Part shown: one piece after another, positions 14,232 through 59,802 of the stretch | Layout: every line of letters starts with the position of its first letter | How positions within the stretch are numbered: the stretch's first letter is position 1 | Position numbers and translations under genes: made by a program | Assembly: GCA_014860575.1 (NCBI GenBank) | Contig: JACZJK010000057.1 | Span: forward strand, 62,001 to 126,000 | Origin: Bacteroidales bacterium | Lineage (GTDB): Bacteria > Bacteroidota > Bacteroidia > Bacteroidales > JAAYJT01 | Length of the DNA: 64,000 nucleotides | Reading direction: 5' to 3' | The notes under the pieces: model-generated | Databases searched by the model: none | Seen by the model: only the letters and a program-made list of their open reading frames with translations | Told to the model about the DNA's origin: nothing

Positions 14232-15626
14232 TTAAAGATTTTCTAGCTTGGTAAAGTGAGTTTTTATTATTTCCCTGAACCGCTTGCCACGATGCTCGAA
14301 ATTCATAAACCTATCGTAGCTGGCGGCTGCCGGCGATAAAAGGCATGAGCGGCCTTTGGCAGTTGATGTAATGGCTGCAGAGATCATTTCGTCGAAATCG
14401 TCGAACCATTGATAGTTATGTTGGCCCGGGAAACCGGATTCAAGCTCACTTTTAAGTCTTTTGCCGGCGTTGCCTGTCAGGAAGATATTCTTTGAAGAAA
14501 TCTTGCCCAGATAAGTCGTTAGTTTGCTGTAATCAATGCCACGATCAAACCCACCTAGAATAAGTGTATCCACATCACCAATGGTTTCCAGCGCATAGAT
14601 TACTGCTTCGGGGATGGTAGCAATGGAATCATTATAAAATTTGATCCCGCCAAACTCGCCTACAAACTCCATCCTGTGTTGTAATCCTTTAAAAGTATCC
14701 AGTGCGCTGCAAAAATATTTGCTTTCCACACCGGCGGTATGACAGGCAGAAAGTGCAGCAAGTAAATTCAACTGGTTGTGGTCGCCATTAAGAAATGTTT
14801 TACCGTTCAGATTGCAAATCTTTTCAGGCACAATACTTTTTTTCGCATACACCTCCCCTTCTGAAATAAAGGTGTGAACCCCTAATTCTTCATGCAGAGC
14901 ATATGGCAGCAGATTTGAAACCGGCATTATTTCATGGATCAAAGCGGGGATCTCCAAATCATTGTAATGATATATAAAGAACTCGCCGGGTTTTTGCCAC
15001 CTGGCAATATTGTATTTGGCCATTTGGTAAGCCTGATAGCTGGCATAATGATCGAGATGCTCCTGGTAAATATTCAGCAGTACGGAAATATGCGGTGAAA
15101 CCTTTACCGCCTCAAGTTGATGTGATGACAGCTCAAACACAATCAACGTGTCATCTTTTATACGATCCAGCACATCAAACGGAGGCACTCCGATGTTTCC
15201 GATCAACAAAGTGTCCTTTCCGGCGGCAGTAAGCAAATGAAAAATAAGGCTTGCTGTCGTGCTTTTGCCTTTTGTTCCGGTAATACCAATGGTGCGATCA
15301 CGAAAAACCTCAAGGAAAAAAGCGGTTTGTGAAGTAAGCTTTTGCGATGGAACATTGGCTGGCAATTGGCTTAGAGAAATTCCAGGACTTTTGATGATCA
15401 GGTCAAAGGAACCAAGGTTGGCAAGATAAGCCGGTCCCAATTGAAATTTAGTTGCGGCGTGTTTGAGTTCTTTGTCATTTGCCAATTCCTCCCGGCGATC
15501 AACAAGTGTGAAGATTTGTTCAGGAAAGAGTCTCCGAAGAAGCTTGTATGTGGATCTACCTTCGGCTCCCAGCCCCAGGATCACAACCTGTTTTCCTTCG
15601 ATCCTGCTGTTAAGAAATTCTTTCAT
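14232..15626 (-). CDS. murD2: MurD-type ligase, probably MurD2 (UDP-MurNAc-L-Ala--L-Glu ligase)
   Basis: A 464-residue Mur ligase. It has an N-terminal Rossmann-like domain ('VVILGLGAEGRSTYKLLRR'), the ATP loop 'GITGTKGKSTTASL' (113-126), a central ligase domain ('HLDHYASYQAYQMAKYNIARW') and a C-terminal domain with 'LQHRMEFVGEFGGIKFYNDSIAT'. Taken alone it would be called MurD, which adds D-Glu to UDP-MurNAc-L-Ala. However, its start overlaps the end of a murL gene by 17 bp. In Xanthomonas the partner of MurL is MurD2, which adds L-Glu, and MurL then epimerises it. The MurD2 call rests on this context; the ligase residues alone do not decide it. Confidence 0.78.
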   Translation of the reverse strand: MKEFLNSRIEGKQVVILGLGAEGRSTYKLLRRLFPEQIFTLVDRREELANDKELKHAATKFQLGPAYLANLGSFDLIIKSPGISLSQLPANVPSQKLTSQTAFFLEVFRDRTIGITGTKGKSTTASLIFHLLTAAGKDTLLIGNIGVPPFDVLDRIKDDTLIVFELSSHQLEAVKVSPHISVLLNIYQEHLDHYASYQAYQMAKYNIARWQKPGEFFIYHYNDLEIPALIHEIMPVSNLLPYALHEELGVHTFISEGEVYAKKSIVPEKICNLNGKTFLNGDHNQLNLLAALSACHTAGVESKYFCSALDTFKGLQHRMEFVGEFGGIKFYNDSIATIPEAVIYALETIGDVDTLILGGFDRGIDYSKLTTYLGKISSKNIFLTGNAGKRLKSELESGFPGQHNYQWFDDFDEMISAAITSTAKGRSCLLSPAAASYDRFMNFEHRGKRFREIIKTHFTKLENL

Positions 15627-16992
15627 TCAGGCGGATTTTTAGCGTTTGAAGGAAATGATCAGGAATAAAATGCCGGGAATTGAATTGAGTTAGTAAATCC
15701 CTGAAAGTACTATCATTATCTGTTGTGTAGTTACGGCTCTGCTTGTAATGTTGCAGCAGAACCGGGAGATTATCAACGCGGTATTTTTTGAATGCGGCGC
15801 GAAGCGCCGCATTCACCTCATCAATGGTGCCGATGCAATCAAATGGTTTTTCCTCTTCCAGTCCACAAAGCTGATCGAAGTAGAACGACAAATTTGGATC
15901 ATCCAGTAAAATGCTGCCAAAAATTTCAACAAGTTCAGCCGGCTCAAGAAAAGGGGAAAGGATAATAAAGGTAAAAAGGCATTTTGGGCATTTCCCGCAC
16001 CAGATCCCAGTTTTGCTTCCTGCGTTGCAGCTTCTGAAAGCCGGATGATATTTATTGAAACCTGAAAAAAGCGCTGCAATCTGCAATTCGTTCAGCGGTC
16101 TGAGGAAACTGAAATAAGTGAAATCATCACTGATATAATTTGCACAATATTCCCTGAAATCCTTTTCAAAGTCATAGCTTTTAGAATACTGATGGTTGAT
16201 CTCTGTTCCGGGAATAGTTGGCTCATTGGCGCTGCTTTCGTTGCTGAGCACAATGTTTTTCGATCCCGTCAAAGCAGCAGGGATCAGCGAATAAAAAGCC
16301 AATATAGCCGAAAAAGGCGTATGGCCGTTCATGAATCCCTGATCATTCAGTCGCAACAATTCCGGGTCAATGTTTCGTTTGATAATGATGGTTTGATCCT
16401 CTTCGAACCCAGCTACCCGGGCGACTTCCAGAGAAGCTTTGGTAGGGTTCAGAAAGAAAGGAATCACAGCTTTGTTTGCGCTTTGCAAAATTTCAAGCGT
16501 TACAACTGAATCTTTTCCGCCACCAATAGGGAGCAGGCTGGTGTCAGCGAGATCAATTGAATACTTTTCAGGACTTGAGAGAGGTTCACATACAAATGTC
16601 AAAAAATCATCAAATTGGGGCTTAATACCGTTGATGTGGAAAAATTCCCCCAGGCCATGATAATACAATTTCTTCCACCAGGCCAGCGCATTGGGTTCGA
16701 GGTAAAAAGATTTGATAATTATTTCAGGTGAGCAGCTTGCTTTCCAATAGCTGATCATTTCCACCATGCCAATATGAAATACAAGATTATCAAGGAATTC
16801 CTGAGGTATTGATTTTGAACAAAGACTGTTCAAAACTAGGCTAAAACTGGGTTCGAACCTGATTTTCCCGGAAAGGTTAAATGAGTATGTTACCTGAATT
16901 GTGTTCGCAGCATGCTCAATATGATAGCCTTCGTTCACAAAGTATGGAAATTCATGGCGTAAATGATCATAATTATTTTGAAGGTGCTTCAT
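15610..16992 (-). CDS. murL: UDP-MurNAc-L-Ala-L-Glu epimerase MurL
   Basis: A 460-residue protein matching my memory of MurL, the ATP-dependent epimerase that converts the terminal L-Glu of UDP-MurNAc-L-Ala-L-Glu to D-Glu with release of AMP and PPi. Visible are a PP-loop-like 'LPIGGGKDSVVTLE' (154-167), 'NGHTPFSAILAF', 'LSNESSANEPTIPGTEINHQ', and a Cys cluster C322, C332, C335, C338 ('WCGKCPKC'). The N-terminal 150 residues are family-specific. The start at 16992 (MKHLQNNYDH) is chosen because 38 upstream in-frame codons contain a promoter-like box. It precedes and overlaps the murD-like gene, so the two are translationally linked. The Cys cluster could bind zinc. Confidence 0.82.
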   Translation of the reverse strand: MKHLQNNYDHLRHEFPYFVNEGYHIEHAANTIQVTYSFNLSGKIRFEPSFSLVLNSLCSKSIPQEFLDNLVFHIGMVEMISYWKASCSPEIIIKSFYLEPNALAWWKKLYYHGLGEFFHINGIKPQFDDFLTFVCEPLSSPEKYSIDLADTSLLPIGGGKDSVVTLEILQSANKAVIPFFLNPTKASLEVARVAGFEEDQTIIIKRNIDPELLRLNDQGFMNGHTPFSAILAFYSLIPAALTGSKNIVLSNESSANEPTIPGTEINHQYSKSYDFEKDFREYCANYISDDFTYFSFLRPLNELQIAALFSGFNKYHPAFRSCNAGSKTGIWCGKCPKCLFTFIILSPFLEPAELVEIFGSILLDDPNLSFYFDQLCGLEEEKPFDCIGTIDEVNAALRAAFKKYRVDNLPVLLQHYKQSRNYTTDNDSTFRDLLTQFNSRHFIPDHFLQTLKIRLNERIS

Positions 16993-17049: not shown

Positions 17050-17096
17050 ACAATTGCATAGCGCAAACGTTAAATAAACGATAGTTGACCTTAGCC

Positions 17097-17681
17097 ATGT
17101 CAGCAAAAAAAGAAAATAAAAAAATCAGCCATATTCCTCCGGCAGTGGGTCGTATTCTTATTTCCGAACCTTTACTTCAGGATTTTTATTTCAGGCGTTC
17201 GGTGGTTTTGCTTGCCGATCACAGCGATGAAGGCACTTTTGGCCTGATCCTGAATAAACCGGTTGACGTGCGTTTCAATGATGTGATCAAAGGATTCCCA
17301 AATTTCCATGCACCGCTTTACCTTGGTGGGCCGGTTCAAACCAGTAACCTTTACTTTATCCATACCCTCGGCGATAAAATCGAAGGCAGCATGAAAATCC
17401 TCGACGGACTTTATTGGGGAGGAGATATAGAACAGATCAAGGAAATGATGACTTTGGATCAGCTAAATCCCTCCAATATTCGTTTCTTCATCGGCTATGC
17501 AGGTTGGGTAAGCAAGCAACTTGACCGTGAACTTGATGAAAACTCATGGGTAGTTTCATCTGCATCAACTGAGCAACTAATTCTTGCCAATCCTGATAAT
17601 TTATGGCGCGATATAGTGAGGACTCTTGGTAAAGATTTCGTGCTATGGGCTAATTATCCACCAGATCCTTTGCTTAACTAA
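17097..17681 (+). CDS. YqgE/AlgH family protein
   Basis: A 194-residue protein of the YqgE/AlgH (DUF179) family. Typical segments are 'VGRILISEPLLQDFYFRRSVVLLADH', 'GTFGLILNKPV', 'LYLGGPVQTSNLYFIHTL', 'FFIGYAGWVSKQLDRE' and the ending 'RTLGKDFVLWANYPPDPLLN'. The family is widespread and has no firmly known activity. The start at 17097 (MSAKKEN) follows the divergent murL promoter region by about 50 bp, so both genes share one control region. Confidence 0.88.
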   Translation: MSAKKENKKISHIPPAVGRILISEPLLQDFYFRRSVVLLADHSDEGTFGLILNKPVDVRFNDVIKGFPNFHAPLYLGGPVQTSNLYFIHTLGDKIEGSMKILDGLYWGGDIEQIKEMMTLDQLNPSNIRFFIGYAGWVSKQLDRELDENSWVVSSASTEQLILANPDNLWRDIVRTLGKDFVLWANYPPDPLLN

Positions 17682-36504: not shown

Positions 36505-37863
36505 TCAATCAAGAATTTTGTTTGCCAGTAAATTAAGGTCTATTCCATCGAAGTTTCCGGAGCTCATCATCAGCAGGTTGGCGTGGTTCCAGTTTTTGTT
36601 TTCCAGAGCGGACAACAACTTCTTCGAATCGGTATAAACCATTAATCCTTCCTTGGCAAACGCAGCTCGTACATCTTCCTCACTGATGGGAGGCAGTTTT
36701 TTCATGGCTATTGTATGTGGGTTAAAATACACGATGGCTTCATCGGCATGTTGCATACAATCTTTATACTCTTGCAGGAAACCACCACTCAAACTGCTGA
36801 AAGTGTGCAACTCCATGCACGCCACAAGTTTTGATTCAGGGAATTGCTCTTTTACAGCTGTTACTGTTGCTTTCAGTTTTGAGGGCGAATGGGCAAAATC
36901 CTTATAAATATGGGTTTGATCCTTCGCAGCAATTAATTCCAGCCGGCGTGCTGCGCCCTCATAAGTCTTTATGGCTTCCAGGAAATCATCGTCGCTTATT
37001 CCGCACTCACTGCAAACTTTCATGGCGCCGGCAAGGTTTTGCATATTATGCCTGCCAAAAATTTTAAGCCGGTAAACTTTATCGTTGTGTTGGAGGTGGG
37101 TCACACCATCCCTCACAAAGTATTCAGGAGTATTATAAGCAATGCGAACCATATCATGCAGTAAGTTCATAGCAATGTCGCGAACCAAAGGATCTTCCTG
37201 ATTATAGATCAGTGATCCGCCCGGCTCAATCATTCCGGCAAACAACCAGAATTGCTTAACATATTCGTCGAAATCGGGGAAAACATTAATATGATCCCAT
37301 GCAATTCCGCTGATCAGCGCCACATGCGGATGATACAAATGAAATTTGGGTCTGGGATCGAAAGGAGCCGTGAGATACTCATCTCCTTCAAAAACCATGA
37401 AGGGGGCGTTGTCGCTCACTTTCACCATTACATCAAATCCCTGCACCTGCGACCCAACAAGGTAATCGAACTCCAGGCCGAAATGCCGCATCACATGCAT
37501 GATCATGGCTGTGATGGTAGTTTTGCCATGACTTCCACCGATCACAATCCGCTTTTTATTGCGTGCATGTTCGTATAAAAATTCTGGAAAGGAATAAACC
37601 TTTACACCTGATCCAATTGCCGCCTGCAGTTCAGGATTATCATTCCGCGCGTGCATCCCAACTATGACGGCATCAAGATTTTGGTGGATTTTTTCAGGGA
37701 ACCAACCAACATCTTCCGGCAATAAGCCTAAAGCATCCAGCCGTGCTTTGGCAGGGTCAAAAATTTCATCATCCGAACCGGTAATTGCGTGGCCTTTATG
37801 ATGCAGGGCAATGGCCAGGTTATGCATCACGGCGCCGCCAATGGCAATGAAGTGATAGTTCAT
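36505..37863 (-). CDS. mpl: UDP-N-acetylmuramate:L-alanyl-gamma-D-glutamyl-meso-diaminopimelate ligase (Mpl)
   Basis: A 452-residue Mur ligase that recycles the murein tripeptide onto UDP-MurNAc. It has an N-terminal 'FIAIGGAVMHNLAIALHHKGHAITGSD', the ATP loop 'VIGGSHGKTTITAMI' (about 107-121), 'FMVFEGDEYLTAPFD' and 'RRLELIA...YKDFAHSPSKLKATVTA', which are Mpl features rather than MurC. It adds to the peptidoglycan functions in the window (murL, murD-like, pbpC). A TACTTTTG -7 box lies 30 bp upstream. Confidence 0.9.
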   Translation of the reverse strand: MNYHFIAIGGAVMHNLAIALHHKGHAITGSDDEIFDPAKARLDALGLLPEDVGWFPEKIHQNLDAVIVGMHARNDNPELQAAIGSGVKVYSFPEFLYEHARNKKRIVIGGSHGKTTITAMIMHVMRHFGLEFDYLVGSQVQGFDVMVKVSDNAPFMVFEGDEYLTAPFDPRPKFHLYHPHVALISGIAWDHINVFPDFDEYVKQFWLFAGMIEPGGSLIYNQEDPLVRDIAMNLLHDMVRIAYNTPEYFVRDGVTHLQHNDKVYRLKIFGRHNMQNLAGAMKVCSECGISDDDFLEAIKTYEGAARRLELIAAKDQTHIYKDFAHSPSKLKATVTAVKEQFPESKLVACMELHTFSSLSGGFLQEYKDCMQHADEAIVYFNPHTIAMKKLPPISEEDVRAAFAKEGLMVYTDSKKLLSALENKNWNHANLLMMSSGNFDGIDLNLLANKILD

Positions 37864-45225: not shown

Positions 45226-48200
45226 CTATTCTACAAATATTACACTCGCTAACTTCGTGAAGCTTGTGTTTTCGGTTCTCACCTCCATCCGCACAAAATA
45301 CAATCCTTTTGAGAGGGTGTACTTACCGGCTGTGAAGCCAAGAATGTGATTGCCGGCTTCATGATGGTGATCGGCCAGTACAGTAACAACACTACCCAAA
45401 CTATTCACAACGCTGATTTTAACATCTCCGGGTTCAACCATTGAGTAGCCAATGCTCATAAAATCGTTGAACGGATTTGGATAGCATTGCAGTGCATATT
45501 CCATGCTGTTGTCAATACGGCTCATGCTCAGGTCATAATTCTGGATAACCTCACCTGATTTATCAGCAAATTCGGTTTCGCTGCTGAAGAAGAAAATGTC
45601 ATCGTCAGAACCAATAGGAGCATTGCTTGTTACAACCAGGGTTATAATAGCGTCACCGTTTTGCATAACTACTGGGTTCAGGTTATACCAACCAATGTTG
45701 ATGAATCCGTTAGCTACGTTATACTCAAGTCCGTTGATGTCGGATTTGATTCCAACAATACTGATTTTATCATCAGGATATGCAAGTTGCAGACTCAGCG
45801 CCGAGAACTCAATGGTTTTATCAACCCTGACAGGAATTTCAAACTGCATACCAGGAACCACCTTTGTGATCTCATCGTTATGGGCTGAGGTCAATGACTT
45901 GGCGCCACCGAAGTTGTAGCTGCCATTCACATCACCGAAACACAAAGCTCTGATGTCTAAAATATTGGAGTTCAAATCTGAATAATTAAATACAGCAGTG
46001 TTAAGATTGATATTGGTGAAGTTCATGCCAAGGTTCTTTGCATTGAACGCCCAATCTCCTGCCGGATAACTATCAATTGTGTAAATTGAACGGTTGCGCA
46101 CAAACAATGCATCTGTAGCATTTACAGCATTGTTTGAATTCACATCACCAACAAAATCAATGAAGTTTGAAGGAGTCCAGTATGCCGGTGGCAAACCAAC
46201 AGTTTTTAATTGTATGGCCAACGCATCGGTTGAGTTGTTACCTCCCCAGGGCAATGAAGTGGAAACTTCAATCCTGTCAATTTCACCTGGATTCTGCTCA
46301 ATAAATGTATACGCACCAGCAGCATCGGTAGTAGCAGTTGCCAAAACCTGCGACTGGTTATTAATCAGTTTAACAACAACATCCTGTATCGGAATATCAT
46401 TATTGTTCTTCCAATAAGACACCGTACCAAGCAGACTGAACTCAACAGTTAATTCACCATCGAAGTAAGTGATCAGATAGTTAGTCATCAACGTTCCGGT
46501 ATTTCCAACGGCATCGCTAGCAACGATCGGATAAACTCCCAGCGGAGCATTGGATGGAGTACCATCACTTACAAGGGTTATTGAAGCTATTGTTTCACCA
46601 TTTACCATTCCGGCTGACTCAAATTCAGTGCCTTCGAACACCAGGGTGTTGCCATAGGCTTTTGTAAGGTCATTGGCGGTGATAGACAAGGCTTTTGCAA
46701 GGATGCTGGCGTTTGCTGTACCATCCACTGTAAGAAGATGATAGTTGAACTGATCAGGGCCGCCAACGATGGCGATGTTCGTATAATTAACCGTTTTATT
46801 GGTTCCAACATTCTTATCTTCAAAATTGGCTTCAAACGAGAATGCAAGGATATCACCGGGTAAGCGGTTATCGAACCAACCGGTTCCAATCACTGTAGTG
46901 CTGCCGTCGTAAGTTTTGTTGGCTGCACCAAAGTCATACAAGGTCAACGGACGTGCTTCCACCATTAAAGTTCCGGCACTCGAATAAGTAATGTTGTAAT
47001 TAGAGAGCAGGAACCCTTGCGAACCAACTGCATTTGATGTGTGAATCGGGTACACGCCGGCATCAGCAAGTACTGGTGTTCCATCACTATTCAAAGTTAG
47101 CTCATCAATGGTTTCGGTAAAAGCCATGCCATCACCGCTGATGCTGAATTCTGTAGTGCCAAGCACCAGCAGATCACCATAGGTTTTATTGCGATTTTCT
47201 GCAGTGATTGTAAGCGGGCGCTCAGTAATAGTGAGCAGGTCACTGAAATAGCTGATGTTATAGTTGGTGTTATTAACAGTGTTCCTGTAGATGTTGTAGG
47301 AACCAACATTTTCGCCAGCGTTACGGTCAAGTTCACCACTAAACTCAATAATCAGATTGTTGGGTAAAGTGCTGCCTACAGCAGGATCAGAAACAAATGT
47401 TAAGGCCGGGTCTGCATTTCCGTAAACCTTGGTCTTGCTATCAGCTGTTACAGTAACTGCAAGCGGCGTGATTTCCAGTTCGTTCTCAACATAAGTGATA
47501 GTATAGTTGCTGTTATCAAGCGAGTTCCTGTTAATAGTGTAGGAACCTACTGTTTCACCGGCATCGCGGTTTAACCAACCTGTGAACCCGATCACTTCAT
47601 CGTTAGGTAAAGTATACCCAACAATAGGATTAGAAACAAAAGTGAGATCTGGATCGAGGTTTCCGTAAACCTTTGATTTACCATCAGCAGCTACTGTTAC
47701 AGCAAGTGGATCAATTTCAAGAGAATTGCCGGTAAATGAAATGTTGAAGTTGTTATTGCCGAGGCTTCCCTGGCCAATTTCATAAGAACCAACATCTTCA
47801 CCCATAGCACGGACGAGCGATCCGGTGTAGCCGATATAAATTCCATTATCAAGTTCGAAACCAACTGCAGGATCGGAGGTAAAGCTCAGAACTGGGTCAA
47901 GGTCACCATAAGTTTTGCTTTGGCTATGAGCAGTTACGCTTACATCCAGCTTGCTGATTGTAAGATCAGCTCCTGTGTAGGTGATTGTATAATTGGTGTT
48001 AGCAACCGAGTTTTGATAGATTGCATAAGCACCGACATCTTCGCCAGGTTCGCGCAATAATGCACCTGTGAATTCAATTACTTCAAAGTTTGCAAGTACA
48101 GCACCCACAGCAGGATCGGAAACAAAGGTAAAAGCTGGATCCAATTGGCCAAAAATCTTAACTTTTGGTTCGGCATTAACAGCAACGGCCAGAGGAATGA

Positions 48201-51200
48201 TTGTTAACTGCGCTCCGGTGTATACGATGTCATAATTGCTGTTCGCAACATTATTTTGCAAAATATTGTATGCGCCCACATCTTCACCGGCAACGCGGCT
48301 TAATTCACCTGTAAATGCAATAGCATCACCATTGTCCAATTCAGTGCCAACGGTTGGGTTCGATACAAATGTGAGTATAGGATCAATGTCACCATAGGTC
48401 TTACTTTGAACATCGGCAAAAACTTGAACCTGTAATTGGGTAATTACCAAATCAGCTTCATGATAGGTGATGTTGTAGTTACCGTTATCAACTGTATGCT
48501 GGTTGATGGTGTAATTTCCGACTGCTTCACCTAAGTCGCGGTTTAAGGCTCCGTTAAATCCAATTACTTCACCATTTGCCAGTTCGAAACCTACTTCTGG
48601 TTCAGATTCAAATGTGAGTGCGGGATCAACTTGTCCATAAACCTTACTCTTTGCATCAGCATAGACATCCACATCAAGCGCGTGAATTGTAAGGTTGGCG
48701 CCAGTGTAGGTAATAGTGTAGTTGCTGTTGTTAACTGTATTCTTCAAAATTGCATAATCGCCTACATTTTCACCTGTAATGCGGATCAGTTCGCCAGTGA
48801 ACGATATTGTAAGTCCGTTTTGCAATGTTGAGCCTACCGCAGGAACAGATACAAATGTGAGTAAAGGATCAAGATCACCATAAGTTTTCTCCTTGGCGTC
48901 AGCAGTTACCTGAACTGCCAAAGGTGCAATATTGAGTAAATCGCCAACATAGGTGATGGTGTAATTATCGTTGTTCAGCGAACCCTGATAAATCTCGTAG
49001 GATCCAACTGTTTCTCCCAGTTCGCGTATAAGTTCGCCTGAGAATGAAACAGCAATACCATTTGGCAGGACTGATCCATTTACTGGTGCTGAAACAAAAG
49101 TCAGGGCCGGATCATCATCACCATAGGTTTTGTTCTGCTCGTCGGCAGTGACAAGTACCGGCTTTTTGGTGATCTCAAAATCTCCGCCGATGAAGGTAAT
49201 GTTGTAATTGGCAGTTTTGTTTACCAATCCATCTTCATCATAGATCAGCAATGAACCCTGGTCAATTCCATAAAGTCCTACATCTTCGCCAATTTCACGG
49301 GCAAGCGCTCCTGTAAACTGATCGTTGTTCACGAGATTAAGCGCGGATGAAACAGTATAAGAGAAAATGGGGTCCATTTCACCATATACCTTGGCTTGCA
49401 ATTCAGGACTAACTTCTATTGTTATTGGCCTTGCAACAACGGTAAGTTTTCCTGCGGTAGAATAATTGATGTTATAGTAGGCGGGGTTGAACCCATTGAT
49501 ACCGGTAGCATTGCTGGTAACAATATCGTAGTCGCCAACGAAAGCTGCAGGATCGGTTCCATCACTTGCAAGTGTAACATTGGTAATTAATTCCGAGTTC
49601 GCGTAAATTTCAGCCTCCGGTTCAATACCACTGCTTACAGTAAACAAGTTGGTTCCCAGATCATAAGCATCACCATAGAAATATTTTACCTGGTGATCCG
49701 CAATAACATTGATCGGACGCTCAAGAACAATAATTTCGGTTTGAGCACCATACTTGGTTGGGTCGGCAAGATCAATAGCAGTTACCCACCATTCATCTAC
49801 CGGACTGAAGCTGCTTGGCTTGGTAAACAAAATGCTGGCAGGGAAGGTCATGATACCCGCATTGCCCAAAGTGAACTGGTAATCTGCCGGAGGAATAGCA
49901 TCAAAATCAGTAATTGAGAATGTGATACTGCCTGTATAATTGATCTTCCTGTTGTTAAACAAGTCGCGGGCTTCAACAGTAACGGTTTGAATATCTCCAT
50001 AATAATGCGGACTTTCAATTCCGTAAACCAGGAAGTCTTTCAACGCTGCAGGCCTTACTTCTATCAGATCACTGGCATCATTCACACCCAAATCTCCATC
50101 TGGAGCAACTGAGTTATCAGAAACCGTGATTGTGTGCATGCCGGTTTTTTCATCATAATACCAGAAATTGGCGCTGGTTGCTCCAGGCAATATATTGATG
50201 AGTGTGATGATGTTTCCACCGGTAGCGGCATCGCGGAATTGCTTGTTAGCGCCCGTTGAACTACTATAGAGATAAACCGGTTCATTGGCATCAGTATTAC
50301 CGACAACCTTATTCACTATATTTCCAAACTCATCATATCGCTTTACTGTGTAGGGAGCTCTTGCGCCACCTGCCATGATGAAGTTTGCATCAGTAATGGT
50401 ATAGTAAGCGGTAGCCGCGTGGTCAACCACGATCTGGCTTGAGATTGCATTTGAATTGCTCAAGTCGGTATCGCTGCTGTAAATCAGCGTAATGGTTTCC
50501 ATTTTTGTGTAATACAGGTCCGTAAAAGTGGCAATACCATCTGTTGCGGTTACTGTAACGGTTCCATAAAGCTGTTCGGTTCCAAGGTAACGGGTGGCTG
50601 TGACTTCGGTAGTATTATCACCTGAAACGAGGTTTCCAAACTGGTCTTCAATCCGAACCTGTGGCTGCGTTGCAAACGGTACACCTGCCATTGCGGTTGG
50701 CGATGGTTCGGTCAAAATAGTAAGCTGTGTGGCAACTCCATGAGTCACTGTTACTATTGCATCATCTGAAATGTTTCCATTTACTTCACCTGCTAAAGTT
50801 CCGGTAATTGTGGCCAGACCGGTTCCAAAAGCATTGAGGAAGAATGTAGCGTTGTATGTTCCATCAAGGTTGTCAGTAACGCTTGTCAGCGCACCAATCG
50901 GTGATGTAGAAAGCGCAATGGTTCCCCGGCTGCTTGTCAGGTTATTACCCCACTGGTCTTTGAGCTGAACCAAAATCAAACTGGTTCCGTCAGCCGTGAT
51001 GCTTTCAGGATCTGCTGTGATGCTGATCTGTGAAAGATTTGGCAAACCTTCAGTGATAATAACCTGGGCATCATCGTTAAATGCCTGTGGTGAACCTTCA
51101 TCGTCAATCACTATTGTTCCGGTTAAAGTAGCTATACCTGTTCCACTTTCGTTGCCGGTTAGGGTTGCTATGTATGTACCAGCTCCATCATAAGATGTAA

Positions 51201-54200
51201 CTGTGAGGACTCCCAGATCAGTTGATAATACAACTGTTCCCCTGTTGTTAACAATCAGGTTGCCAAACTGGTCCTTCAATTGAACAGTAACCACGCTCGA
51301 CGCATCAGAAGTCATCGTAATTGGTGAAGCGGTGATGGTTGAGGTAAGCACATTCGGCAAGCCTTCAGTAATCAGTACTGTGGCGTTGTCTGAAATATTT
51401 AGAACCGCACCTCCGCCATCAATTTGGATTGTGCCGGTAATTGTTGCCAGTCCAACACCATCGCTATTGCCTGATAAAGTGGCTGTGTAAATGCCATTTC
51501 CAACATAAATTACTCCTGTTAAAACTCCCCTGTCAGTGCTCAGTGCAACAGTAGCTCTGTCGTTAACAATCAGGTTTCCAAACTGGTCAATCAACTGAAC
51601 GCTGATCAAACTTGTCTGGTCAATGGTCATTTCACTTGGATCGGCAGTGATGATTGTTGTTGCTATTGCCGGCACTCCTTCAATGATCAGCACGGTTGCG
51701 TCATCAACAATTTGTAAGTGCGATCCTTCGCCATCAGCCTGGATGGTTCCTGTAATGGTAGCTAGACCAACACCCTGGTTGTTGCCCGAAAGGGTCGCAT
51801 GATAAACTCCGGCCTCGAAATAAGTCACCACAGTTAATACCCCGCGACTTGTATTGAGCTGCACAACAGCCCTATCGTTAACAATCAGGTTACCAAACTG
51901 GTCTTTCAACTGTACGCTGATCAAACTGGTCTGGTCAATCGTCATTTCAACCGGATCGGCAGTAATTGTTGTTGTTGCTACAACAGGCAAGCCTTCAGTA
52001 ATTTCAACTGTTGTATTATTAGCGAAATCTCCTTCAACTGTTTCAGCACTACCAGTACCATCAAATGAAGCGGTTATTTCGGAAATTCCTGTTCCGTTCA
52101 AACCTCTGGTATCGCCTGTTAAGGTTGCAGTATAGGTTCCATTAAAGTTATCAGTTACACTGGAGAGTAAACCAATGCTTGATTCCATGGTAACAATTCC
52201 ACGACTCGAAGTAAGTAGATTGCCCCACTGATCTTTCAGTTGCAGGGTAATTGTACTTGATCCATCAGTTGTCATAGTTTCAGCCGATGCCGAAATAGAA
52301 GACTGTGCCAGCGATGGCAAACCTTCAGTGATCAGCACTGTGGCATTGTCGGCAATATCAAGTGCCGGTTCTTCACCGTCAATCTGAATGGTTCCGGTAA
52401 TGGTTGCAATGCCGGTTCCACTGCTGTTAGCAGTAAGTGTTGCGGCGTATTGCCCATTTATTGTATAATTTGTGACACCGATAACCCCAAGATTGGTTGA
52501 TAGCACAACCGGGCCACGGTTAGTCACTATGGTATTTCCAAACTGGTCGCGCAACTGAACTGTGATGGTGCTACTTTCATCTGTAGTCATGGTGGTTGGC
52601 TCAGCAGTAATCTCAATAGTTGCAATTGCAGGCAAACCTTCGGTAATTGTTACCTGGGCATTGTCAATAATAGCAACAGCGTCGCCAATATCATCAATGA
52701 TAATTGTTCCGGTAATTGTAGCTACTCCAACTCCATCGGCGTTGCCATATAGCGTGGCTGTATAAAGCCCATTGCTAACGTAGCTTACTCCCAAGAGGTT
52801 GCCCCGATCGGTTGATAGCGCAACCGTTCCGCGATTGTTCACAATCATATTTCCAAACTGATCGTAGAGTTGTACGCTGATCAGACTGCTCTCATCGGTG
52901 GTCATAGTGAGCGGATCGGCGGTAATCTGGATCATGGCTACTGCCGGCAGGCCTTCGGTAATTGTTACCTGGGCATTGTCATCAATAGCAACAGCATCGC
53001 CACTATCATCAATGATAATTGTTCCGGTGATAGTAGCTACTCCTACTCCATCGGCATTGCCATACAGAGTGGCTGTATAAAGACCATTTTCAATGTAAGT
53101 TACTCCCGAAAGGTTGCCCCGGTTGGTTGAGAGCGCAACTGTACCGCGATCGTTCACGATTGTATTCCCAAACTGGTCGTATAGTTGTACGCTTATCACA
53201 CTGATTTCATCGGTAGTCATGGTAAGAGGATCGGCGGTGATCTGAATCTCGGCTACAGCCGGCAATCCTTCGGTAATCAGAACGGTTGCGTCATCATCAA
53301 TATCAATAATATCTGCAACAGTAATATCACCGATGATCGCGAAGCTGCCAGTAATCGTTGCAAGGCCGGTACCCTGGTCATTGCCCGAAAGCGTTGCAGT
53401 ATAGATACCGTTGTCAATATAGTTTACCGGGGTAAGAATGCCTAAATCAGTGAATAAGGACACTTCAGCCCGGTCATTCACGATCAGGTTGCCCAGCCAG
53501 TCTTTCAACTGAACGCTTATCAAACTGCTTTGGTCAATGGTCATTTCAACCGGATTTGCGGTAATGGTAGTCGTTAATCCGGAAGGCAGGCCTTCTGTGA
53601 TCTCAACAGTTGTATTATCAGCGAAGTTTCCTGAAACTGTTTCAGCAGTACCTGTACCTTCAAAGGAAGCGGTAATTAATGATAATCCTGTTCCATTTAG
53701 TCCACGAGTATCACCCGTGAGTGAAGCAGCGTAAGTTCCATCATTGTTATCAGTTACACTTGAAAGCAAACCGATGGTTGATTCCATCGTAACAACTCCG
53801 CGGCTCGAAGAGAGCAGGTTGCCCCACTGGTCTTTCAGTTGCAAAGTGATGTTGCTGGATTCATCGGTTGTCATGGTGAGGGGGAAAGCCGAAATTGAAG
53901 ACTGTGCCAGTGAGGGCAAGCCTTCGGTAATCTGAACCGTAGCAAAATCAACAATATCAAGTACTAGTCCTGAACCGTCAATCTGAATGGTTCCTTCAAT
54001 GGTTGCTGTACCGGTTCCACTGCTGTTAGCTGTCAGTATTGCTGCATATTGCCCGGCTGAGGTATAATCTGTATCTCCGATGACTCCGAGATCAGTCGAG
54101 AGCACAACTGGTCCACGATTGTTCAATATGAGATTTCCAAACTGGTCGCGCAACTGAACCGTGATCGTGCTGCTATCATCGGTTGTCATGCTGATTGGAT

Positions 54201-57200
54201 CAGCGGCAATATCAATTGTTGCAATTGCAGGCAGGCCTTCGATAATTTCAACCTGCGTAGAATTCACAAAATTACCTACAACGCCTGGCGCTGTTACATC
54301 ACCAACGAATGATGCAGTGATGATGGAAGATCCAGTTCCGTTTACTCCCCTGGTGTCGCCGGTTAAGGTAGCAGAATAAGTTCCATTTCCGTTATCTGTG
54401 ACACTTGAGAGCAAACCTATCGTTGACTCCATGCTGACAACGCCGCGGCTTGTTGTAAGGCTGTTGCCCCACTGGTCTTTCAGTTGCAGTGTGATGGTGC
54501 TTGAACCATCTGTAGTCATTTCGTTAGGATTGGAAACGATTGTTGACTGCGCCAGGTTGGGTAATCCTTCGGTTATCTCAACTTCAGCAGTATCGTCAAT
54601 TTCCTGCGGTTCGCCAATATTATCAATAACAATTGTACCGCTGATGGTTGCTATCCCTGTTCCTGAAACATTTCCTGTAAGGGTAGCTGAATATGTTCCG
54701 TTAAGATGATCGGTAACTATGCTGATTGCACCAAGACTTGTTGTCAGCGCAACCGTTCCACGACTGTTTACAATCGGGTTACCAAGATGGTCTTTTAAGG
54801 TAACTGTAATTATACTTGAACCATCTGTTGTCATTGTCAATGGATCAGCTTCAATCTGAATCGTTGCAACATCAGGCAAGCCTTCAGTAATGGTTACTGT
54901 GGCCGTGGAAAGCTGTGAAGGCGAACCACCGTCATTGAAAAATCCATTAACTCCGGAAGCTGAACCACTGCCTGCAAATGAGCCGGTGATATATGCTATA
55001 CCCACGCCATTCAAAGGCCTTACATCACCACTTAGGATCGCAATATATCTACCGTCATCATCGTATGAAGTAGCAGATAGTTCACCAAGCACATTGGAAA
55101 GCAAAGTAGCCTCGCCCCTGTTATTCTGAACCAGGTTGCCCAGATGATCCTTTAGTTGCAAAGTGATCAGAGATGTTTCATCAGTGGAAATAGATGTTGG
55201 ATCGGCAGAAATTGTGCTTGTTACCAGATTCGGCAAACCTTCGGTGATGCTCACAATTTCATTATCAACAATGCTTCCATCGGTTAGCAGTGGATCGGTA
55301 AAATCAATAACGCCGGTAATGGTTGCATTGCCTACGCCATGGTTTACAGCGTCATAGCTTGCATAAAGGCTGGCAATATAAATACCTGAACCTGTATAAA
55401 AAGCTTCGATGGAAACAGGTCCATTGTTAATTCCAAACCCTCCAAGTGTAGTATTGAGTGATACTTCTCCATCATTGGTGGTTCTGTTATTGTCAAATTC
55501 ATCTTTTAACTGAACAGTTAAAACCACATTCTCATCTGTTGTCATTTCGGGGCTGGCAGCAGTAATGAGCGTATTGGCAAGAGAAGGAGGAGCCGGATCA
55601 ACCATCACATCGCGGGTTTGGTTGAGCGTTACAGTATTTACAACTGCCGAAAATACATTCAGCCCGGTTTCCGTAACCCTTACATTGGTCACGTAGCTGC
55701 CGTTTCCTGTATTAATCAGCGCTGAAGATGGGATTGGAATCCATGTATTTCCAGAACCGGCCCTGTGTTCATCATCACCTTGTAAAAGGATCTGAACATC
55801 CTGGCAGGTACAGAGGAAGTTTCCAAAAGCATCGCGTGGGATAATGGTCACCTGCACATAATCGCCTGCAATAACAGGGGATGTATAACTGATAGTGAGT
55901 TCACTCAGGGATGCGTTTACCGGTCCCGGGCCAATCACTATATCCTTCAGCTCTCCGCTCTTGAATGCCTGTAAGGCATCTGCGGCACGCAGCCAGTATG
56001 ATCCAATCTGGTTTACCGTTATGGCATCATTAAAAGTGCGAACACCCTGATATCCGGCGAAAGAAGGCGTACCACCCGGAAACTGTACCAAAACATCGTT
56101 GGATGATTTGAATCGGATATTGCCGGCATAATCTCTGGCAATGTTGAAATACACATCGCGGGCTGTAACCTTCACACTGAAAGGAATACCGGCTTGCTTT
56201 CTCACTCCACCGATATTGTGACTTTCCACCGGAACAGGCTCTACAAGGAAATTGTTGAGCGGTGCATTGTAAACGATAATGGGTGCTGTAGTTCCAGGGC
56301 TGGAAGTTGGGCCATCTGTAATTGTAATAGTGGGTGTTTCCTGAGCATTATAAAATATAAATCCACCAACCACGGCAATACCCGCGGTAAAACCTTGCGG
56401 ACCATTGGCAGGCATCACCCTGGGATTGCCCCGTGGCGATGAAGATGCAGTAGTGGTCCAAAGCACGTCATTTTGCCCATCGTAATTGGTTTTGACATTG
56501 CCGAATTCATCGTATACGGTGGCAGTTACTGAGAACTCAGTGCCAGCTATTACTGAACCATTGGCTGCGAGTGTGAAATAATTGATTGGTGCAGGCGTAA
56601 CCTCAATATCGCCTTGCTGCCCTTCTTTTGAACCATCATTTACCTTCACATAAAATGCACCTGTTTCTTTAAGGTTAACTCCATTGATAAAGGTTTTAAC
56701 ACCTAAATCGGCAGTTAAGAATGTATAGCCATCTGGTAAAGTAGTAGGCTGAGCTGGGTTGTTGCTTACGTTATTGGTGCTAAACTCTATGGTTCCAGTA
56801 TAATCGTATTTCAGGTTATCGAATTCATCATACGCAGTAACCGTAGGTGATGTCGTAACCCCAGCCATATGCGGGCTTACTATTCCGGCAACAGTGAAAT
56901 ATTCAAGCGCGCCTGGAATTATATTAAAAGCCTCCGAAACCGGTTGAGTAATTATCGGACTACCTGCACTGGCAATCAGCGTATATCCATTGCCGGTTTT
57001 ATTGATCCATAAATCTGTAAAGGTGGCTACACCATTCACGGCATTCAAGGTAAGCGTGCCATTCAGAACTCCGGCCTCACCAATAGATGGATTGGTTTGA
57101 ATAGCCAACGTTACAGCTGCACTTGAATTTGTCATGGTATTGCCATAAGTATCAGTAATGCGAACCGAAACCGGAATATTCTGTCCGGCAGCTGTGTTCA

Positions 57201-59298
57201 CTGGTGAAGTGAGGAAAACCAGCCTGTTGGGCGCAAAGTTGGCTGTAACAGTAGTACTGCTTGTTACATTCAAATCGGTACGAGGATTATTGGTGCTTCC
57301 ATCGCTCCAATTAATGAAGTTATATTCAGTGTCAGGAACTGCGGTGACTGCTGTGCCATTGCCACCATTTGCAATCGTTTGCGGTGTTGTACCGCTGATA
57401 CTTCCGTCGGGTCCGGCAAGGTAAGTCAACACAGAATGGGTTCGGAAAGAAGATGATGTTAAGTAAGACGAATTTCCACAAAGGTTATTGGCATAAACCC
57501 TAAGGTAGTATGTGATGCTTTGGCTGAGTCCTGTGGCCACTGCAGAAGTGGTTGTGGTTGAACCCTGTGCAATTCCGTTGCCATAAGCAACTGACGAACT
57601 GGTTCCTACAACCCAATAATAGGTAATTGTTCCCGAACCGGTTGATCCGCCAAATGATAAGTTTGCTGCTGTGGTGCCTGTTGGCGTTCCTGAAGCCGAA
57701 GTGGGTGTTGAAGCCGGTTGGTTTACAGTTACTGTTGCAGACGCACAACCTGCACTAAACCCGGAAGCATTGTAATTTCTTGCGTAGTAGGTTGTAGTAG
57801 TGGTAGGATATACCGGAAAAGGATTACCTGTGCCAATGAATGTTGTACCACAACCACCCGTATACCAATACACAGTTCCCTGTGCATTGCTTACTGAAAG
57901 TTGGGTCGCACTGCCACTGCAAGTGGTCGAAGGGTTAGCGCTGGCACTTGAAGGGTTAGCGGGCTGAGTAATAAATGATAATTGTGAACCATATCCTGTA
58001 CCTGCTGAGTTGGTTGCATAGGCCCTCACATAATAGGTGGTATTGGAAGCTAATCCTGTAAGTGAGCTCGAATACGAACCGGTTCCAATACCATTGCTGG
58101 TAATACCGGTATAGCTTGATATCGTTGGTGAACCGCTAGTATTCCACACGACTCCTCGATTGTTTACAGTAGCGCCTCCTGTAGCGGTTACATTGCCACC
58201 AGATGAGGCAGCATTGGTGGTAACAGTGCTCACCGTTGTAGTTGATACAGAGGGGACAGATATGTTTGACGTACTGAATGATACTAGAGGCCCGTAGCCT
58301 GTTCCAATTGAATTGATTGCGTAAGCACGAACATAATATAGGGTTCCGGGATTTAATCCGCTCATGGATGCTGTGAACGAGCCGGTCCCAGCCCCGCTGA
58401 TTACCTTGGAATGAATGGTTATTGGTGGGTTGGTGGTGCTGTAAACAATTCCCCTTTCGATAACTGTTGAACCACCATCACTACTCACATTACCGCCTGA
58501 GTTTCCACTACTGCCGGTGATGCTTGTAACAGAATATGTTTGATTTACCGTAGGCGCAGCCTGAACAACCCCACCAGTAACGTCCCAACGCCAAACACCT
58601 GTTTGACTAATGTTTGAATTATACTGGTTCTGGTTAAAGTTGCTCTGGCCTGAGTAGGGAAGCAAGGCATAGGTTATCTGATTACCTGCCGACCACCCTG
58701 CAGTAGGCCATGCGGAGTTATTTCCTGATTTCCACCATCCAATATTATTATACCGAATTTCAATCTGGAAGTCCAGATTCGTAGATGAATAGCTTCCAGG
58801 TTTTCTCAAAACAACCTGAAACGTCACGCCATTTGTTCCAACCCCGCCTCCAACACTACTGTTGTACGGATAAACTGTATGCCAGGTTGCCACTACAAAA
58901 TTGCTACCTGTGTTCTGATCAAAATATACGTTTCCACCTTTTCGTGGATCAAGATCATCATACTGTGCTGCAATGATAGGCCCACTTGTATAGGCCTGGA
59001 TACCTAGTGGGCTGTATCCGCTATTGCCGTGTCCAAAGGTAATATACCCATTTGAGCCCACATAAACAGACGTATATGTATTTGCACCAAATCTCACTCC
59101 ATAAGGAAAAACAGAGGTAATACTCACGCTTTGATTACAGTCGTCGCACCCTGATAAAGTGGTCAGATTGTTGCTGTATGACAATAGGGATGCCTGGCCG
59201 AAAAGTTGGCTGCCAGATATAAGCAACGCGACCACCATCAGGAATTGACCTAACAAGCGGGTCAATCCATTTTTTTTGTTGTGTAAGTTATTTTTCAT
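45226..59298 (-). CDS. Giant T9SS surface adhesin with Big_1-like and MBG/YDG repeats
   Basis: A roughly 4690-residue (about 0.49 MDa) secreted protein. Domains in order by approximate base position: signal peptide (59298-59195); a NIDO-like domain with 'SVYVGSNGYITFG' and 'IIAAQYDDLDPRKGG' (59190-58570); FN3/Ig-like modules (58560-57440); an 'INWSDGS' repeat (57430-57245); filamin/Ig-like modules (57240-55600); about 15 Big_1-like repeats (55600-50745); more Ig-like modules to 49720; about 13 MBG/YDG repeats (49720-46430); then a carboxypeptidase-regulatory-like and dockerin-like region with 'GDVNSNNAVNATDALFVRN', a cohesin-like module and a T9SS sorting domain ('CYPNPFNDFMSIGYS', end at 45229). 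The start at 59298 has a good SD sequence (GGAGGT). A role in adhesion or biofilm is inferred. Confidence 0.88.
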   Translation of the reverse strand: MKNNLHNKKNGLTRLLGQFLMVVALLISGSQLFGQASLLSYSNNLTTLSGCDDCNQSVSITSVFPYGVRFGANTYTSVYVGSNGYITFGHGNSGYSPLGIQAYTSGPIIAAQYDDLDPRKGGNVYFDQNTGSNFVVATWHTVYPYNSSVGGGVGTNGVTFQVVLRKPGSYSSTNLDFQIEIRYNNIGWWKSGNNSAWPTAGWSAGNQITYALLPYSGQSNFNQNQYNSNISQTGVWRWDVTGGVVQAAPTVNQTYSVTSITGSSGNSGGNVSSDGGSTVIERGIVYSTTNPPITIHSKVISGAGTGSFTASMSGLNPGTLYYVRAYAINSIGTGYGPLVSFSTSNISVPSVSTTTVSTVTTNAASSGGNVTATGGATVNNRGVVWNTSGSPTISSYTGITSNGIGTGSYSSSLTGLASNTTYYVRAYATNSAGTGYGSQLSFITQPANPSSASANPSTTCSGSATQLSVSNAQGTVYWYTGGCGTTFIGTGNPFPVYPTTTTTYYARNYNASGFSAGCASATVTVNQPASTPTSASGTPTGTTAANLSFGGSTGSGTITYYWVVGTSSSVAYGNGIAQGSTTTTSAVATGLSQSITYYLRVYANNLCGNSSYLTSSSFRTHSVLTYLAGPDGSISGTTPQTIANGGNGTAVTAVPDTEYNFINWSDGSTNNPRTDLNVTSSTTVTANFAPNRLVFLTSPVNTAAGQNIPVSVRITDTYGNTMTNSSAAVTLAIQTNPSIGEAGVLNGTLTLNAVNGVATFTDLWINKTGNGYTLIASAGSPIITQPVSEAFNIIPGALEYFTVAGIVSPHMAGVTTSPTVTAYDEFDNLKYDYTGTIEFSTNNVSNNPAQPTTLPDGYTFLTADLGVKTFINGVNLKETGAFYVKVNDGSKEGQQGDIEVTPAPINYFTLAANGSVIAGTEFSVTATVYDEFGNVKTNYDGQNDVLWTTTASSSPRGNPRVMPANGPQGFTAGIAVVGGFIFYNAQETPTITITDGPTSSPGTTAPIIVYNAPLNNFLVEPVPVESHNIGGVRKQAGIPFSVKVTARDVYFNIARDYAGNIRFKSSNDVLVQFPGGTPSFAGYQGVRTFNDAITVNQIGSYWLRAADALQAFKSGELKDIVIGPGPVNASLSELTISYTSPVIAGDYVQVTIIPRDAFGNFLCTCQDVQILLQGDDEHRAGSGNTWIPIPSSALINTGNGSYVTNVRVTETGLNVFSAVVNTVTLNQTRDVMVDPAPPSLANTLITAASPEMTTDENVVLTVQLKDEFDNNRTTNDGEVSLNTTLGGFGINNGPVSIEAFYTGSGIYIASLYASYDAVNHGVGNATITGVIDFTDPLLTDGSIVDNEIVSITEGLPNLVTSTISADPTSISTDETSLITLQLKDHLGNLVQNNRGEATLLSNVLGELSATSYDDDGRYIAILSGDVRPLNGVGIAYITGSFAGSGSASGVNGFFNDGGSPSQLSTATVTITEGLPDVATIQIEADPLTMTTDGSSIITVTLKDHLGNPIVNSRGTVALTTSLGAISIVTDHLNGTYSATLTGNVSGTGIATISGTIVIDNIGEPQEIDDTAEVEITEGLPNLAQSTIVSNPNEMTTDGSSTITLQLKDQWGNSLTTSRGVVSMESTIGLLSSVTDNGNGTYSATLTGDTRGVNGTGSSIITASFVGDVTAPGVVGNFVNSTQVEIIEGLPAIATIDIAADPISMTTDDSSTITVQLRDQFGNLILNNRGPVVLSTDLGVIGDTDYTSAGQYAAILTANSSGTGTATIEGTIQIDGSGLVLDIVDFATVQITEGLPSLAQSSISAFPLTMTTDESSNITLQLKDQWGNLLSSSRGVVTMESTIGLLSSVTDNNDGTYAASLTGDTRGLNGTGLSLITASFEGTGTAETVSGNFADNTTVEITEGLPSGLTTTITANPVEMTIDQSSLISVQLKDWLGNLIVNDRAEVSLFTDLGILTPVNYIDNGIYTATLSGNDQGTGLATITGSFAIIGDITVADIIDIDDDATVLITEGLPAVAEIQITADPLTMTTDEISVISVQLYDQFGNTIVNDRGTVALSTNRGNLSGVTYIENGLYTATLYGNADGVGVATITGTIIIDDSGDAVAIDDNAQVTITEGLPAVAMIQITADPLTMTTDESSLISVQLYDQFGNMIVNNRGTVALSTDRGNLLGVSYVSNGLYTATLYGNADGVGVATITGTIIIDDIGDAVAIIDNAQVTITEGLPAIATIEITAEPTTMTTDESSTITVQLRDQFGNTIVTNRGPVVLSTNLGVIGVTNYTINGQYAATLTANSSGTGIATITGTIQIDGEEPALDIADNATVLITEGLPSLAQSSISASAETMTTDGSSTITLQLKDQWGNLLTSSRGIVTMESSIGLLSSVTDNFNGTYTATLTGDTRGLNGTGISEITASFDGTGSAETVEGDFANNTTVEITEGLPVVATTTITADPVEMTIDQTSLISVQLKDQFGNLIVNDRAVVQLNTSRGVLTVVTYFEAGVYHATLSGNNQGVGLATITGTIQADGEGSHLQIVDDATVLIIEGVPAIATTIITADPSEMTIDQTSLISVQLIDQFGNLIVNDRATVALSTDRGVLTGVIYVGNGIYTATLSGNSDGVGLATITGTIQIDGGGAVLNISDNATVLITEGLPNVLTSTITASPITMTSDASSVVTVQLKDQFGNLIVNNRGTVVLSTDLGVLTVTSYDGAGTYIATLTGNESGTGIATLTGTIVIDDEGSPQAFNDDAQVIITEGLPNLSQISITADPESITADGTSLILVQLKDQWGNNLTSSRGTIALSTSPIGALTSVTDNLDGTYNATFFLNAFGTGLATITGTLAGEVNGNISDDAIVTVTHGVATQLTILTEPSPTAMAGVPFATQPQVRIEDQFGNLVSGDNTTEVTATRYLGTEQLYGTVTVTATDGIATFTDLYYTKMETITLIYSSDTDLSNSNAISSQIVVDHAATAYYTITDANFIMAGGARAPYTVKRYDEFGNIVNKVVGNTDANEPVYLYSSSTGANKQFRDAATGGNIITLINILPGATSANFWYYDEKTGMHTITVSDNSVAPDGDLGVNDASDLIEVRPAALKDFLVYGIESPHYYGDIQTVTVEARDLFNNRKINYTGSITFSITDFDAIPPADYQFTLGNAGIMTFPASILFTKPSSFSPVDEWWVTAIDLADPTKYGAQTEIIVLERPINVIADHQVKYFYGDAYDLGTNLFTVSSGIEPEAEIYANSELITNVTLASDGTDPAAFVGDYDIVTSNATGINGFNPAYYNINYSTAGKLTVVARPITIEVSPELQAKVYGEMDPIFSYTVSSALNLVNNDQFTGALAREIGEDVGLYGIDQGSLLIYDEDGLVNKTANYNITFIGGDFEITKKPVLVTADEQNKTYGDDDPALTFVSAPVNGSVLPNGIAVSFSGELIRELGETVGSYEIYQGSLNNDNYTITYVGDLLNIAPLAVQVTADAKEKTYGDLDPLLTFVSVPAVGSTLQNGLTISFTGELIRITGENVGDYAILKNTVNNSNYTITYTGANLTIHALDVDVYADAKSKVYGQVDPALTFESEPEVGFELANGEVIGFNGALNRDLGEAVGNYTINQHTVDNGNYNITYHEADLVITQLQVQVFADVQSKTYGDIDPILTFVSNPTVGTELDNGDAIAFTGELSRVAGEDVGAYNILQNNVANSNYDIVYTGAQLTIIPLAVAVNAEPKVKIFGQLDPAFTFVSDPAVGAVLANFEVIEFTGALLREPGEDVGAYAIYQNSVANTNYTITYTGADLTISKLDVSVTAHSQSKTYGDLDPVLSFTSDPAVGFELDNGIYIGYTGSLVRAMGEDVGSYEIGQGSLGNNNFNISFTGNSLEIDPLAVTVAADGKSKVYGNLDPDLTFVSNPIVGYTLPNDEVIGFTGWLNRDAGETVGSYTINRNSLDNSNYTITYVENELEITPLAVTVTADSKTKVYGNADPALTFVSDPAVGSTLPNNLIIEFSGELDRNAGENVGSYNIYRNTVNNTNYNISYFSDLLTITERPLTITAENRNKTYGDLLVLGTTEFSISGDGMAFTETIDELTLNSDGTPVLADAGVYPIHTSNAVGSQGFLLSNYNITYSSAGTLMVEARPLTLYDFGAANKTYDGSTTVIGTGWFDNRLPGDILAFSFEANFEDKNVGTNKTVNYTNIAIVGGPDQFNYHLLTVDGTANASILAKALSITANDLTKAYGNTLVFEGTEFESAGMVNGETIASITLVSDGTPSNAPLGVYPIVASDAVGNTGTLMTNYLITYFDGELTVEFSLLGTVSYWKNNNDIPIQDVVVKLINNQSQVLATATTDAAGAYTFIEQNPGEIDRIEVSTSLPWGGNNSTDALAIQLKTVGLPPAYWTPSNFIDFVGDVNSNNAVNATDALFVRNRSIYTIDSYPAGDWAFNAKNLGMNFTNINLNTAVFNYSDLNSNILDIRALCFGDVNGSYNFGGAKSLTSAHNDEITKVVPGMQFEIPVRVDKTIEFSALSLQLAYPDDKISIVGIKSDINGLEYNVANGFINIGWYNLNPVVMQNGDAIITLVVTSNAPIGSDDDIFFFSSETEFADKSGEVIQNYDLSMSRIDNSMEYALQCYPNPFNDFMSIGYSMVEPGDVKISVVNSLGSVVTVLADHHHEAGNHILGFTAGKYTLSKGLYFVRMEVRTENTSFTKLASVIFVE
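46430..49720 (-). repeat. About 13 MBG/YDG-type repeats
   Basis: Nine units have the form 'VTADSKTKVYGNADPALTFVSDPAVG...LP...I.FSGELDR..GE.VGSY.I....V.N.NY.I.Y' and four are related longer units such as 'NKTYGDLLVLGTTEF' and 'NKTYDGSTTVIGTGWF'. Unit length is about 80 residues. These are beta-sandwich modules of MBG/YDG type, common in large bacterial surface proteins. Confidence 0.85.
50745..55600 (-). repeat. About 15 Big_1-like repeats
   Basis: Each unit carries a spacer 'TITEGLP' followed by 'ITADP.TMTTDESS.I.VQLKDQFGN.IVN.RG.V.LST..G....V.Y...G.Y.A.L.G...G.G.ATITGTI'. The unit is about 105 residues (315 nt) and 14 'EGLP/EGVP' spacers occur. They are bacterial immunoglobulin-like modules of the invasin/intimin kind. 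Confidence 0.85.
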
Positions 59299-59300
59299 GG

Positions 59301-59738: not shown

Positions 59739-59802
59739 GGTTTGATATATTTTGTTGTTATTATTCATGATACTGTGTTTTAATATCTCGTATTTCAATT
59801 AC

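Follow-up and report, generated by a model that had tools for sequence, protein, structure and literature searches.

A MurL-MurD2 gene pair and a candidate alternative route to peptidoglycan d-glutamate in Bacteroidales

Results

The murL-murD2 locus

The window, by which we mean the whole stretch of DNA that was analyzed, comprises 64,000 nucleotides from a Bacteroidales bacterium (GenBank assembly GCA_014860575.1, contig JACZJK010000057.1). It carries murL and a murD-like gene, murD2, overlapping on the reverse strand, with the following features.

14232–15626, reverse strand: murD2, 464 amino acids, matching the murD model TIGR01087 with 311 bits
14541–14543, reverse strand: codon of MurD2 Arg-362, equivalent to Lys-348 in an alignment with Escherichia coli MurD
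14622–14624, reverse strand: codon of MurD2 Ile-335, equivalent to E. coli Lys-319 in the same alignment
15060–15062, reverse strand: codon of MurD2 Glu-189, equivalent to E. coli Asp-182 in the same alignment
15610–15626, reverse strand: 17 bp shared by the end of murL and the beginning of murD2, from the ORF coordinates
15610–16992, reverse strand: murL, 460 amino acids from its ATG, matching model NF041275
15979–16032, reverse strand: SC(x)9CxxCxxC, candidate zinc site of MurL, from an hhalign alignment with the Cys motif of E. coli QueC
16507–16530, reverse strand: PIGGGKDS (residues 155–162), candidate PP-loop-like pyrophosphate-binding motif of MurL, with GGGKDS invariant in 47 homologues
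17085–17681, forward strand: YqgE/AlgH family gene, divergent neighbor of murL, found in the same place in most MurL-positive relatives

The murL reading frame is likewise open from a TTG 38 codons upstream of the ATG. A preliminary description of this DNA, made from the sequence alone, had reported that murL overlaps a murD-like gene by 17 bp, and the ORF coordinates give exactly that length; the annotated murL and murD of Xanthomonas sacchari overlap by 20 bp. Where both genes lay on a single retrieved stretch (53 genomes), murL and murD2 mostly overlap or abut. The two are fused as a single ORF of 876–937 amino acids in four genomes (G473, G574, G662, and G500) and as an ORF of 906 amino acids at a further locus (L127).

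Elsewhere in the window, a Mur ligase gene (36505–37863, reverse strand) scores 226 bits with MurC and 186 bits with Mpl, both below the cut-offs, and possibly encodes a peptidoglycan-recycling ligase. Two very large repetitive ORFs of 4694 and 1387 amino acids (45226–63966, reverse strand) look like genes for secreted or surface repeat proteins.

The 15610–16992 product is a divergent MurL homologue

The window protein matched NF041275 (MurL_Xanthmoales) over 384 residues with an E-value of 2.3e-77. Its score of 260 bits lies below the equivalog cut-off of 700 bits of this Xanthomonadales-specific model, which was reached by no genome among the 295 sampled from the order. Judged by sequence, the protein is a divergent homologue of MurL and not a member of the NF041275 equivalog. 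It shares 30% identity over 440 columns with the annotated MurL of X. sacchari, including 65 of 90 strongly conserved columns. The motifs from which MurL had initially been recognized are all present in the ORF: PIGGGKDS at residues 155–162, NHQYSKS at 266–272, and SCN...WCGKCPKC at 321–338. They are not chance occurrences, as 47 homologues all have GGGKDS, SNE, NHQYSK, and the cysteines. A sequence search of the PDB found no solved relative of MurL.

On two Pseudonocardia plasmids (L263:4764–6164 and L264:4959–6353), a MurL-like gene without a murD neighbor adjoins a WD40-repeat gene; its product is possibly a MurL-family enzyme with another substrate. As a plasmid-borne homologue of this kind outscores the window protein on NF041275 (323 against 260 bits), a high score for the family is not in itself proof of the reaction. 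We use the name MurL for the window protein on the combined grounds of gene linkage, partner residues, absence of MurI, and similarity.

MurL and MurI exclude each other in the order

The genome containing the window (4.4 Mb, ~95% complete) gave no match to MurI or the Asp/Glu racemase family, in line with the alternative d-glutamate route that had been suggested for it, although at this completeness a MurI gene may conceivably have escaped. Across the 295 genomes of the order, MurL was found in 96 and a strong MurI match in 181, and the two never co-occurred: strong MurI matches were present in 0 of 96 MurL-positive but 181 of 199 MurL-negative genomes (Fisher p = 1e-59, shared ancestry ignored). 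MurL occurs in 44 families, none of which has a strong MurI match.

Several weaker candidates for MurI appeared in MurL-positive genomes. Eleven MurL-positive genomes gave weak TIGR00067 matches (E-values of 1e-9 to 1e-12), and the two of these that were scanned both scored far better on amino acid (Asp/Glu-type) racemase models. PF01177 hits occurred in four MurL-positive genomes; the three that were scanned matched models of this kind, and the fourth appeared by eye to be of the same sequence type.

The MurL/MurI exclusion bears on a different reading, in which the substrate of MurL and MurD2 is a surface polymer or a different UDP-sugar peptide and peptidoglycan d-glutamate comes from an unrecognized racemase. 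MurL-like family members without a murD neighbor do indicate that the family is not confined to peptidoglycan. Nevertheless, we consider this reading very unlikely: mutual exclusion across 44 MurL-containing families points to the d-glutamate step, as does the decay of canonical MurD described below, which was seen in MurL-positive genomes and in only one further genome, G017.

The preliminary description had also proposed that MurL in a Bacteroidota member would extend the known range of the enzyme. The only groups listed in a review (PMC8788868) are Gamma- and Alphaproteobacteria and Actinobacteria, and we found no report of MurL in Bacteroidota in the open-licence literature. The extension holds, with the qualification that it concerns about one-third of the sampled genomes of one order rather than a single oddity. 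A wide spread across the phylum was not found: in a phylum-wide sample of 395 genomes, MurI was present in 334 and MurL in the window's genome alone. A collection scan returned at least 572 stretches encoding relatives; of these, 80 were retained, and almost all bear the titles of Bacteroidales or Bacteroidetes metagenome-assembled genomes.

The partner ligase carries l-glutamate-type residues

The preliminary assignment of the partner gene as MurD2 had depended on context. We compared three chirality-controlling positions, Asp-182, Lys-319, and Lys-348 in the literature numbering of E. coli MurD. These positions hold Glu, Ile, and Arg (Glu-189, Ile-335, and Arg-362 in the window protein) in 53 of 53 MurL-linked MurD2s and in X. 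sacchari MurD2, whereas Asp, Lys, and Lys occupy them in all 55 MurDs of the division (dcw) cluster, from MurL-positive and MurL-negative genomes alike, and in E. coli MurD. Changing the first and third positions has been reported to switch Xanthomonas MurD2 to d-glutamate, and K319T to make E. coli MurD accept l-glutamate (PMC8788868). In a quick MurD tree, X. sacchari MurD2, on a long branch, grouped with the Bacteroidales MurD2s (SH-aLRT 99), and E. coli MurD grouped with the dcw MurDs, apart from the MurD2 clade. By residues and phylogeny, the window partner is a MurD2, in agreement with the earlier call. Among the proteins compared, this three-residue rule separated MurD2 from MurD without exception.

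MurL is predicted to adopt a QueC-like fold

An AlphaFold2 model of MurL (pLDDT 94.4) gave its best structural matches with QatC (Z 18.2, 323 residues aligned), QueC (Z 12.9), and Cap9 (Z 12.3), and placed PIGGGKDS just behind strand one of the QueC-like domain. We base the proposed fold on this structure model, as an hhalign comparison with E. coli QueC, although aligned at the Cys motif, reached a probability of just 4%. No Pfam family, PF06508 included, matched MurL at 0.001. MurL is accordingly predicted to have a QueC-like fold and is not counted as a member of PF06508.

QueC signatures are SGGxDS and C(x)8CxxCxxC (PMC13329287). MurL is reported to use one ATP and to yield AMP, and those who discovered it suggested that the α-carboxylate is adenylated. 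The predicted QueC/QatC-like fold, together with the loop and the four-cysteine motif, fits this chemistry and the adenylation proposal. No paper linking MurL with QueC was found in the open-licence literature. MurL now has a predicted fold, which offers a testable ATP-dependent mechanism.

A canonical MurD persists in the window's genome

A second murD, the presence of which had been raised as a point to check, was found on another contig of the window's genome, in the division cluster between mraY and ftsW. Its product is full length with all canonical d-glutamate-type residues. The genome also encodes a class IV aminotransferase resembling d-amino acid transaminase (Dat; G000:C28, L265:436–1335); in the PDB, it best matches a predicted d-alanine aminotransferase. 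The full-length MurD may thus be supplied with d-glutamate, and the classical step could then persist in this organism.

Both routes might then operate, the canonical MurD with transaminase-made d-glutamate and the MurL-MurD2 pair in parallel or under particular conditions. Besides the intact MurD and the Dat-like gene, this possibility is favored by the company that the genes keep: strong Dat-like matches accompany 20 of 45 full MurDs but only 1 of 31 truncated ones, counts that come from MurL-positive genomes alone, ignore shared ancestry, and include proteins of which some were checked individually. On the other hand, the Dat-like protein scores 107.7 bits on TIGR01121, far below the cut-off of 277, and is close to other class IV enzymes, and no MurL-positive genome has a d-amino acid transaminase above that cut-off. 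We regard the operation of both routes as a possibility, though not the likelier one.

Many MurL-positive relatives retain only half of MurD

In 80 MurL-positive genomes, a full dcw MurD was found in about 45 (three of them seen solely as pieces at contig ends), and 31 have the C-terminal half alone, encoded between mraY and ftsW. Those seemingly without any dcw murD proved to carry diverged halves, and either the full gene or the half is kept in every one of the 76 genomes (of 80) with a determinable state. The halves are 176–187 amino acids long (199 in one, counted from the first start codon), and most begin near one shared residue shortly upstream of the C-terminal domain. Nine of ten halves tested matched Mur_ligase_C, the most diverged one weakly. 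The equivalent of Lys-348, which contacts d-glutamate, is present in 31 of 31 full MurDs of MurL-positive genomes, 7 of 22 recognizable halves, and 0 of 10 diverged halves. In a 60-genome set, wherever a murD match was found in a MurI-positive genome, the gene was nearly full length.

In G017, the interval from mraY to ftsW likewise encodes a C-terminal half of MurD (L227:2037–2609); MurI, MurL, and a full MurD were not found in this genome.

As dS was saturated in most half-MurD pairs, pN and pS were used in place of dN/dS. The half-MurDs are under purifying selection, since in eight pairs pN was 0.14–0.44 while pS was 0.72–0.86 (near saturation). Some copies are highly diverged, as decaying pseudogenes or assembly artifacts might be. 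That the halves are nothing else is most improbable in view of this selection, their near-constant length and unchanged operon position, the retention of a full gene or a half wherever the state could be told, and the presence of one half on a 5.26-Mb contig.

On a MurL tree, the well-supported branches require no fewer than three switches between full and half MurD, among them pairs within genera g35 and g49. If truncation is taken as the sole likely direction, this amounts to at least three truncations, barring regain of full genes by transfer. We found no literature on half-MurDs among open-licence papers. It is more likely than not that the takeover by MurL-MurD2 relieved the ancestral MurD of its catalytic duty and that MurD was then cut, more than once, to a conserved, non-catalytic C-terminal domain. 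This domain possibly has a scaffolding role with products of the same cluster. If so, the MurD C-terminal domain would have a second, ligase-independent job in wall synthesis or division, and the half-MurDs would be a natural experiment splitting the catalytic role of MurD from a possible structural one.

Discussion

Taken together, homology, gene linkage, l-glutamate-type residues, exclusion from MurI, and the predicted fold argue for the following route. MurD2 (14232–15626) would couple l-glutamate to UDP-MurNAc-l-Ala and MurL would act by adenylation chemistry, the window pair probably being active. Others have shown both reactions in Xanthomonas, where MurL uses ATP and forms AMP, as well as activity of orthologues from Micromonospora and Salinispora. 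MurL-MurD2 would make the dcw-cluster MurD dispensable as a ligase, and in many relatives it would have decayed to its C-terminal half, which would have no catalytic activity and be retained for a different job, probably a structural one. We hold this route, including the dispensability of MurD and its decay to a retained half in relatives, to be very probable.

The presence of a MurL-MurD2 route in the window's genome is well supported by the combination of genes observed: MurI was not found, a second murD exists, and the partner has MurD2 residues, all of which agree with the alternative route put forward in the preliminary description. "Alternative" need not mean "only", however, since this genome still has both a canonical MurD of full length and a gene resembling d-amino acid transaminase. 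The known range of a recently discovered variation on a textbook pathway now takes in a large, mostly uncultured group of Bacteroidales.

Like canonical MurD (TIGR01087), MurD2 is a Mur ligase that conserves the P-loop lysine, the carbamylated lysine, and the equivalent of His-183. It differs in having Glu/Ile/Arg instead of Asp/Lys/Lys at the chirality-controlling positions, in forming a separate clade, and in being encoded outside the dcw cluster. MurL resembles QueC, QatC, and Cap9 of the QueC family of PP-loop-type ATP enzymes in its predicted fold, an SGGxDS-like loop, a C(x)nCxxCxxC motif, and ATP-dependent chemistry, which for MurL was reported on homologues. Unlike QueC, it has GGGKDS in place of SGGxDS and a C(x)9 rather than C(x)8 spacing, lacks a Pfam match, and would have another substrate.

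The closest known system is MurL-MurD2 of Xanthomonas oryzae (XOO_1319/XOO_1320; Ogasawara and Dairi 2021, PMC8788868), with which the window shares adjacent genes, homologous proteins, and no detected MurI. The same l-glutamate-type residues are found in Xanthomonas MurD2, and the genes overlap as in X. sacchari. The window pair differs in its Bacteroidota host and in a MurL only ~30% identical to that of X. sacchari. Unlike Xanthomonas, MurL-positive Bacteroidales also keep the canonical dcw murD, full or halved, and some have fused murL to murD2.
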